Part shown: in pieces, positions 9,814-37,332 of the stretch
Numbering within the stretch: position 1 is the first letter of the stretch
Layout: the number at the start of each line of letters is the position of its first letter
Source: Solibacillus silvestris
GTDB taxonomy: Bacteria > Bacillota > Bacilli > Bacillales_A > Planococcaceae
NCBI GenBank assembly: GCA_001586195.1
Contig: CP014609.1
Coordinates: forward strand, 718,001 to 782,000
Direction: 5' to 3'
DNA: 64,000 nt
Position numbers and translations under genes: made by a program
The notes under the pieces: generated by a model
The model's input: the letters and a program-made list of their open reading frames with translations, nothing else
Database searches by the model: none
Told to the model about the DNA's origin: nothing

Positions 9814-9904
9814 AGTTTATGAGAGAACATATGCACCCATTTTATGATATTGTTAAACTATAAAGTGAAACTTCAATCAGGTGTGTCATACCCCACTGAT
9901 TATA

Positions 9905-10006
9905 AGGAACACAAGCTAAAATCGTCACGTCCTGTGACAACGCTTGTGTGACCAACATCGTGTCGGCCCGAACCAATCGGGCATTTACTACCCGTTAATG
10001 CGGGAT
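9905..10006 (+). repeat. Structured short repeat, family B copy 1, in the recG 5-prime region
   Basis: Outer stem ACACAAGC/GCTTGTGT (9909-9916, 9942-9949) encloses the hairpin GTCAC-GTCCT-GTGAC (9924-9938). A second hairpin CCAAC-ATCGT-GTCGG (9952-9966) follows with one mismatch. Two more small hairpins, GCCCG/CGGGC and CCCG/CGGG, run on to about 10006, just before the recG ribosome site. The copies at 16.1 and 37.2 kb share the core and show compensating changes in the stems. The rest of the 9710-10033 gap contains only the terminator and AT-rich sequence. Confidence 0.75.
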
Positions 10007-10033
10007 AAATAATTCGTAAAGGAAGTGTCGACA

Positions 10034-15958: not shown

Positions 15959-16014
15959 TATTATTTAAATATATAAGCTGTAGGCTGTAAATATTTATGG
16001 AAGACTTAGCGAAA

Positions 16015-16190
16015 TGAGCTCGAGTGTAGCTGACGGCTAAGCCTTTCGCTACAAGCGAGCTTCCTGCGGGATAAGCGTGATGCCTGAGACAAGGAACAAA
16101 AGCTAAGAGCGCCACGTCCTGTGGCAACGCTTTTGTGACCAACATCGTGTTGGCCTCACGCCCGTGGAAAGCGAGCTCTAATTTCGCTTG
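16015..16190. repeat. Family A repeat copy 2, interrupted by family B
   Basis: The left half contains AGCTTCCTGCGGGATAAGCG and the right half CACGCCCGTGGAAAGCGAGC, matching both sides of the family A copy at 5.3 kb. GCGTGA/TCACGC pair across the gap. The centre of the element is occupied by a full family B unit (16091-16156). CAAGCGA/TCGCTTG at the edges add an outer stem. The block sits between fabG and acpP inside an otherwise conserved lipid operon. Confidence 0.7.
16091..16156 (+). repeat. Structured short repeat, family B copy 2 (nested)
   Basis: Outer stem ACAAAAGC/GCTTTTGT (16096-16103, 16129-16136) encloses the hairpin GCCAC-GTCCT-GTGGC (16111-16125), followed by the perfect hairpin CCAAC-ATCGT-GTTGG (16139-16153). 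Compared with copy 1, the outer stem changes C-G to A-T and the inner hairpin T-A to C-G, keeping pairing each time. Confidence 0.8.
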
Positions 16191-16255
16191 TTAGTAGTAG
16201 AAAGCATTGTTAGTGATATTATTAAAGTAGCATGCATTGAGGGGAGGTGACTGAT

Positions 16256-37120: not shown

Positions 37121-37199
37121 TTATAATAAGAACAATAGACGATATAACAAGTAAGAATGATAGAAAGTAAAATTATATAAAAAGCAAAGTGGATTGAAA

Positions 37200-37278
37200 T
37201 GGAGGAGTATGGAACGAAACTAAAACTGTCACGTCCTGTGACAACGCTTTCGTGACCAACATTGTGTTAGCCTCCGGA
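37200..37278 (+). repeat. Structured short repeat, family B copy 3
   Basis: Outer stem ACGAAA/TTTCGT (37214-37219, 37248-37253), inner hairpin GTCAC-GTCCT-GTGAC (37228-37242), then CCAAC-ATTGT-GTTAG (37256-37270) with one mismatch. GGAGG at the left edge pairs with CCTCC at the right edge. Relative to copies 1 and 2, an outer pair changes from A-T to G-C. The copy lies in the rbgA-rnhB gap, about 55 nt before rnhB; the remainder of the gap is AT-rich with no gene. Confidence 0.75.
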
Positions 37279-37332
37279 ATGAAAATCGACGATATATTAA
37301 GAAATCGGAATTAATAGATTTGAGGGCATTAT

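Follow-up and report, generated by a model that had tools for sequence, protein, structure and literature searches.

Are the paired stems of three short repeats in a bacterial chromosome a sign of selection on an RNA, or are they kept for the sake of the DNA itself? The question arises from a window of 64,000 nucleotides of Solibacillus silvestris (contig CP014609.1, positions 718,001 to 782,000), the whole stretch of DNA analysed here, in which a first-pass annotation had described three copies of a structured element and read their compensated base changes as selection on an RNA (or single-stranded DNA) fold, with a mobile palindromic unit and a small RNA among the possible roles. That interpretation, taken overall, is partly supported: the compensated pairing is real, whereas the pattern of base changes does not support an RNA fold, and the element is probably a hairpin module of DNA.

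The Three Window Copies

All three repeats match the Rfam family RF01690 (Bacillaceae-1, hereafter B1) above its gathering score of 35; the matches cover the whole model (positions 1–67) and are the sole above-threshold Rfam matches in the window. The repeats are members of this already known family, whose catalogue entry has the same stems and loops. The repeats first placed at 9905–9970, 16091–16156, and 37211–37270 are thus real, with coordinates that were about 4 nt off. The copies and their surroundings are as follows (G and L numbers denote genomes and loci).

9900–9966, plus strand: B1 copy 1 (75.2 bits, cmscan), outer-stem arm ACACAAGC, within a class III host repeat according to the class III alignment.
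9865–10009, plus strand: class III host repeat of copy 1, upstream of recG, preceded by ATAAA (9860–9864), with the start GTGAAACTTC and the end CCCGTTAATGCGGGATAAA.
16087–16153, plus strand: B1 copy 2 (78.5 bits, cmscan), outer-stem arm ACAAAAGC, the tip of a long nested hairpin in the fabG–acpP gap.
16008–16189, plus strand: outer host repeat of copy 2, common to G010, where it has another tip.
37205–37270, plus strand: B1 copy 3 (50.1 bits, cmscan), in the ylqF–rnhB gap.
37189–37290, plus strand: outer stem around copy 3, arms GTGGATTGAAATGGAGG...CCTCCGGAATGAAAATCGAC; the matching outer stem of G005 and G014 encloses another hairpin.

The compensated pairs described earlier can be read from the sequences: in copies 1, 2, and 3, the third outer-stem pair is A-T, A-T, and G-C, the fourth is C-G, A-T, and A-T, and the second pair of the inner hairpin is T-A, C-G, and T-A, while all copies have the same orientation relative to the downstream gene (recG, acpP, and rnhB). 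The hairpin said to follow is mismatched in two of the three copies, with one A.C in copy 1 and one C.A in copy 3; the latter copy, of 66 nt, is also short of one position in its 5′ outer arm. The RNA fold of positions 15998–16195, i.e., the host repeat of copy 2, reaches −75.1 kcal/mol (z −3.48). B1 folded alone as RNA is weakly special on the plus strand (z −1.5, −1.5, and −0.8 for copies 1–3) and more so on the minus strand (z −4.6, −2.7, and −2.4). The reverse strand of copy 2 (window 16131–16108, minus) displays a terminator-like pattern, a hairpin and then CTTAGCTTTT, and this could make antisense insertion into operons unfavourable.

Covariation and Strand Preference

The covariation of B1 is real. 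Among 57 distinct gap-free copies, 97.6% of the aligned cells are paired, double changes occur at 16 of the 17 pairs and in 184 cells (shuffled mean 58; none of 500 shuffles as high), and the score for covariation reaches 0.495, compared with 0.151 after shuffling and no more than 0.099 with the partner slid. Non-random, compensated pairing, as claimed from the three window copies, therefore persists far above both controls, and the copies added here, in which a loss of covariation was looked for, have kept it.

The strand on which the pairing acts was approached through wobble pairs. A transition in a Watson-Crick pair yields G-U, or A-C as seen from the complementary strand, and an RNA made from one strand is expected to keep the former and lose the latter. 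The 1,802 cells of 106 distinct Solibacillus copies (from 133, after removal of 11 that were not 67 nt long and merging of identical ones) comprise 1,744 Watson-Crick pairs, 15 G-U, 21 A-C, and 22 others. The tRNA control from rRNA-operon loci of the genus, in which acceptor and T stems were taken by position from the 45 of 54 tRNAs that end in CCA, gave 492 Watson-Crick pairs, 46 G-U, 0 A-C, and 2 others; an alternative count over all 54 tRNAs, possibly shaped by the pairing rule built into the program and therefore not relied on, gave 66 G-U and 0 A-C. Since G-U is no commoner than A-C in B1, unlike in tRNA stems, the data lend no support to the proposed selection for an RNA fold. The folding energies also speak against it: of 100 copies, 95 form the more stable RNA on the reverse strand.

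Under DNA parameters, the two strands differ little in mean fold energy (−14.0 vs. −14.5 kcal/mol); even so, 72 of 100 copies are more stable on the reverse strand, which counts against a DNA hairpin module, as does the strong conservation of the loop bases and of parts of AAGGA, CTAA, and AAC, which resembles a bound RNA. A binding protein that rejected G-U would make the wobble test blind. According to a passage in PMC4333381, the discoverers of Bacillaceae-1 were not confident of its strand.

Host Repeats and Module Slots

Comparison of flanks revealed one B1 core in differing surroundings, each class having its own outer-stem arm. Class I has the arm ACAAAAGC and lies inside repeats whose arms are TTGATTGGAATGGAGG / GGAATGGAAATCAA, two slots within one composite repeat of G011 make up classes II and V, and class III lies inside an ATAAA-bounded repeat; class IV and a 23S–5S spacer class are further settings. 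Occupancy is optional: B1 exceeds the gathering score in 11 of 30 class II/V repeats, taken from 15 genomes, and was recognised by a motif test in 8 of 30 class III repeats. Slot 2 of G011 contains a bare tip, B1 in direct orientation, or B1 inverted (five loci, judged by eye), and this occurrence of both orientations within one slot of one host repeat is likewise at odds with selection on an RNA fold. Singlets, direct doublets, and inverted doublets of B1 all occur.

ATAAA precedes the class III host repeat and also forms its end; because this motif contains TAA, B1-less class III repeats often start at the upstream gene's stop codon. Outside the window, at G000:C1:1189659-1190059, four class III right ends lie about 126 nt apart in what is apparently an ATAAA-bounded tandem array, and at L278 the end of one class III copy is the start of another.

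Presence and Absence at Fixed Loci

At the three window sites, the B1 copy of S. silvestris was found at its place in none of the readable relatives (13, 15, and 3 of 15 relatives at sites 1, 2, and 3; the gene in this comparison is sdaAA). In the gap upstream of recG, G006 and G010 lack the class III repeat, and in G005 and G009 another repeat with B1 lies at a different place of the gap; in the fabG–acpP gap, the tips differ within an outer repeat common to S. silvestris and G010, and in the ylqF–rnhB gap, S. silvestris has B1 where G005 and G014 have the other hairpin. Inside that hairpin, a module of about 38 nt, AAATTTATTTTGCGACGAAAGCGAAGCGACAGGAGCAC, is present in G005 and absent in G014 (L189 vs. 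L193).

At three orthologous loci with flanks 87–95% identical, the same host repeat occurs with and without B1: S. silvestris against G005 and G006, S. silvestris against G014, and S. silvestris together with G005, which share one B1 copy, against G010. The pair with G014 (L372 vs. L378) displays a clean insertion of about 60 nt in the apical loop, where TGAG and TAA flank it, and no target-site duplication was found in this single clean case; of the features expected of MITEs, B1 thus has presence/absence at orthologous sites but, in this case, no target-site duplication. About 7 nt are replaced in class III, and L357 (G006) resembles B1 with an internal deletion.

Abundance and Distribution

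The S. silvestris chromosome (3.99 Mb) contains 39 copies of B1, and the counts in 16 Solibacillus genomes, with up to 150 candidates scored in each, are 39, 101, 93, 8, 8, 28, 18, 103, 13, 27, 42, 107, 3, 7, 19, and 16 (range 3–107). B1 was found in 191 of 250 genomes sampled from the order, all matches listed belonging to one family and positive and negative genomes standing side by side within one genus, and in 67 of 299 genomes and 32 of 119 genera of the class; with 19 and 16 candidates scored per genome in the order and class samples, respectively, copies per genome are lower bounds. The range of copy numbers, the optional occupancy, and the presence/absence at orthologous loci lend support to the mobile palindromic unit that had been named as one option. 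Searches of plasmids and phages found no B1 match; the class III sequence matched four plasmid records (two of Peribacillus, one of Pseudalkalibacillus, and one of Klebsiella), none of the B. cereus group. PMC9029176 places RF01690 among the most abundant sRNA families that lack an assigned function, and BSGatlas counts eight Bacillaceae-1 structures for B. subtilis. Known context for B1, by description only, also includes the family Bhal-1 of B. halodurans (74 bp) and a single rRNA-located cluster group of B. subtilis, both reported in a repeat screen (PMC2267715).

Stable-RNA Operons and a Possible RNA Element

As an alternative, B1 could be a genuine RNA element of stable-RNA operons, i.e., a processing mark, insulator, or antitermination-like signal in rRNA/tRNA precursors, which repeats captured since insertion into operons was then harmless; we regard this as a possibility to be taken seriously, although its probability falls clearly below even. 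Bacillaceae-1 sometimes lies beside rRNA operons. In S. silvestris, one copy was located by cmscan between 23S and 5S, no rRNA or tRNA was found within 1.5 kb on each side of the other 38, and one copy follows the SRP RNA by about 145 nt. In the 26 readable of 29 Solibacillus 23S–5S spacers, which were picked by similarity to a B1-bearing spacer and in which B1 was recognised by eye (by cmscan for the S. silvestris copy), B1 is present in six, all sense, as an RNA element would have it; the other 20 are without B1, several of them bare at 65–73 nt, which argues against such an element. A second inserted hairpin, GGGTTTCAAGACAC...GTGTATTGGAAGCC, occurs in the 23S–5S spacers of a number of operons (e.g., L321 and L305), and in S. 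silvestris (L302) and G010 (L303 and L318) its inner part is cut to a few bases beside B1.

The placement of B1 in other families of the class also favours the RNA element. Nine of 15 best-hit loci, which are the best or tied-best listed matches of 14 of the 50 other-family genomes with matches, lie in rRNA/tRNA operons; so do all five further loci (of 20), which were chosen for B1 near a contig end and kept out of this rate. The last B1 base lies directly before the 5S model, one base ahead of it, at L382, L383, L398, and L399, and B1 touches the start of the 16S model in the identical copies of one genome (L389 and L390), follows the 23S end at L392, lies between tRNAs at L393, L395 (two copies), and L399 (two copies), and precedes a tRNA at L401. 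At L385, L387, L394, L396, L397, and L400, neither rRNA nor tRNA was found. At L399 and L395, at least two B1 copies with different arms occupy one tRNA cluster, between consecutive tRNA genes. A role in RNA processing would equally explain copies that are flush with mature rRNA/tRNA ends and mostly sense, and this counts against a DNA hairpin module. The three copies upstream of 16S at L386, L388, and L391 are antisense, the other operon copies being sense, and they tell against an RNA element, as do the inverted copies of slot 2. Neither does the wobble test favour it: 14 copies that are sense in stable-RNA operons of other families, with widely different arms, show no G-U excess (226 Watson-Crick, 2 G-U, 3 A-C, and 7 others; one duplicate was removed, and stems were picked by Watson-Crick number, which lowers G-U and A-C equally).

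A sense bias between co-directional genes, 63:8 in total for Solibacillus (S. silvestris 16:4, G011 34:3, and other loci of the genus 13:1), might also be expected of an RNA element; in named contigs of several genera (61 loci), the ratio is 9:7, without bias. The set comprised 39 of 39 copies of S. silvestris, 70 of 107 of G011, 24 of 26 other genus loci, and 61 of 78 pattern loci, from which 17 near locus ends were excluded and which include some Solibacillus contigs; none of the 194 copies lies inside a called gene. A B1-specific sense bias was dropped since B1-less class III repeats are likewise biased (six ++ vs. zero −−). The bias therefore stems at least partly from the hosts and their targets, and is no proof of a B1 RNA. 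Replication strand was rejected as its cause: because leading:lagging counts outside co-directional gaps are 8:11 in S. silvestris and 21:12 in G011, with origin positions inferred from synteny, the bias seems to follow gene direction, the replication test being weak with six lagging-strand gene gaps in all (three sense and three antisense).

A Probable DNA Hairpin Module and Its Alternatives

We propose that B1 is, on balance, a non-autonomous nested DNA hairpin module of about 60–70 nt. It sits at the tips or in inner slots of various hairpin repeats, is modular and optional in the two host repeats that were counted, takes both orientations in one slot, is present or absent at fixed loci, pairs exactly without strand preference, and is placed at the edges of stable-RNA genes. 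Such a module would have been captured rarely into each host repeat, at hairpin tips, and would then have spread by movement of the host repeats, while copies that share arms may have exchanged tips through recombination or gene conversion. The equal treatment of both strands suggests that the pairing is kept at the DNA level, in an extruded or single-stranded hairpin or through arm-to-arm correction. Further points count against the module: neither a mobilising enzyme nor a target duplication was found for B1, and within one host family gene conversion explains the pairs with and without B1, the element itself not moving.

In integron attC sites, the sequences of the hairpin arms are free so long as they match. 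By analogy, B1 may be a structure-specific recombination substrate, its arms free if exactly matched and its single-stranded DNA read by an enzyme that would place B1 at hairpin tips and at tRNA/rRNA gene edges; we consider this unlikely.

A REP/BIME-type repeat moved by a Y1 (IS200/RAYT) transposase is a very improbable explanation. It is consistent with the palindromic sequence, with the singlets and the direct and inverted doublets, with the ATAAA that precedes and ends the class III host repeat, and with a Y1 gene in 9 of 16 genomes; however, the gene is absent from the other seven, including G000, G001, G002, and G007 (39, 101, 93, and 103 copies), and the sole Y1 gene of G011 (107 copies) is interrupted by a stop. 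The absence from these four many-copy genomes led us to reject Y1 as the present mover, past activity being possible. A link to TnpB was rejected as well, since none of 20 TnpB loci has the B1 core or class II/III end motifs, a class I-like motif occurring at one.

Least credible of all is the hypothesis, raised in a passage of PMC4333381, that CsrA is bound by the reverse complement of B1, as an sRNA or sponge: the better RNA fold is that of the reverse strand, AGGA loops are possible there, and csrA is present in 16 of 16 genomes, but GGA occurs in both reverse-strand loops in 11 of the 106 distinct Solibacillus copies and in neither in 21, the window copies lack it in the second loop (ATCGT, ATCGT, and ATTGT), and in stable-RNA operons the opposite strand is transcribed, three copies excepted.

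Known Systems and Implications

The nearest known systems are the bcr repeats and the pneumococcal BOX with its optional boxB. As described in portions of PMC3446304 and PMC6542083, bcr1–bcr18 of the Bacillus cereus group are structured repeats of 100–400 bp, often in UTRs and operon gaps, bcr1 averaging 39 per genome, and their mobility is linked to a TTTAT motif. This motif is the reverse complement of the ATAAA at the ends of the class III hosts of B1, the likeness to bcr being one of description and not of compared consensus sequences. BOX of Streptococcus pneumoniae is modular, with an optional internal boxB, strain-variable length, and nested repeats (PMC3049150, in part); boxB forms tandem arrays in one repeat family, whereas B1 occupies several host repeats as well as rRNA/tRNA operons. 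RF01690 itself is catalogued as an sRNA gene and marked as not cis-regulatory (Weinberg et al. 2010, PMC2864571); the copies analysed here, in contrast, form a swappable module that occurs many times within other repeats and bears no RNA-strand signature. Searches of openly accessible literature turned up no description of RF01690 as a mobile element.

The catalogue label "small RNA" may mislead. If B1 is a DNA hairpin module, the sRNA annotation and the CsrA hypothesis for RF01690 mislead, and covariation alone would be insufficient proof of an RNA; were B1 a recombination substrate, RF01690 would be a mobile DNA element and no RNA family. The asymmetry of G-U against A-C is a cheap test that is applicable to other repeat-built RNA families. 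Should B1 function as RNA instead, that function could be tested directly, given its position flush against 5S, 16S, and tRNA genes.
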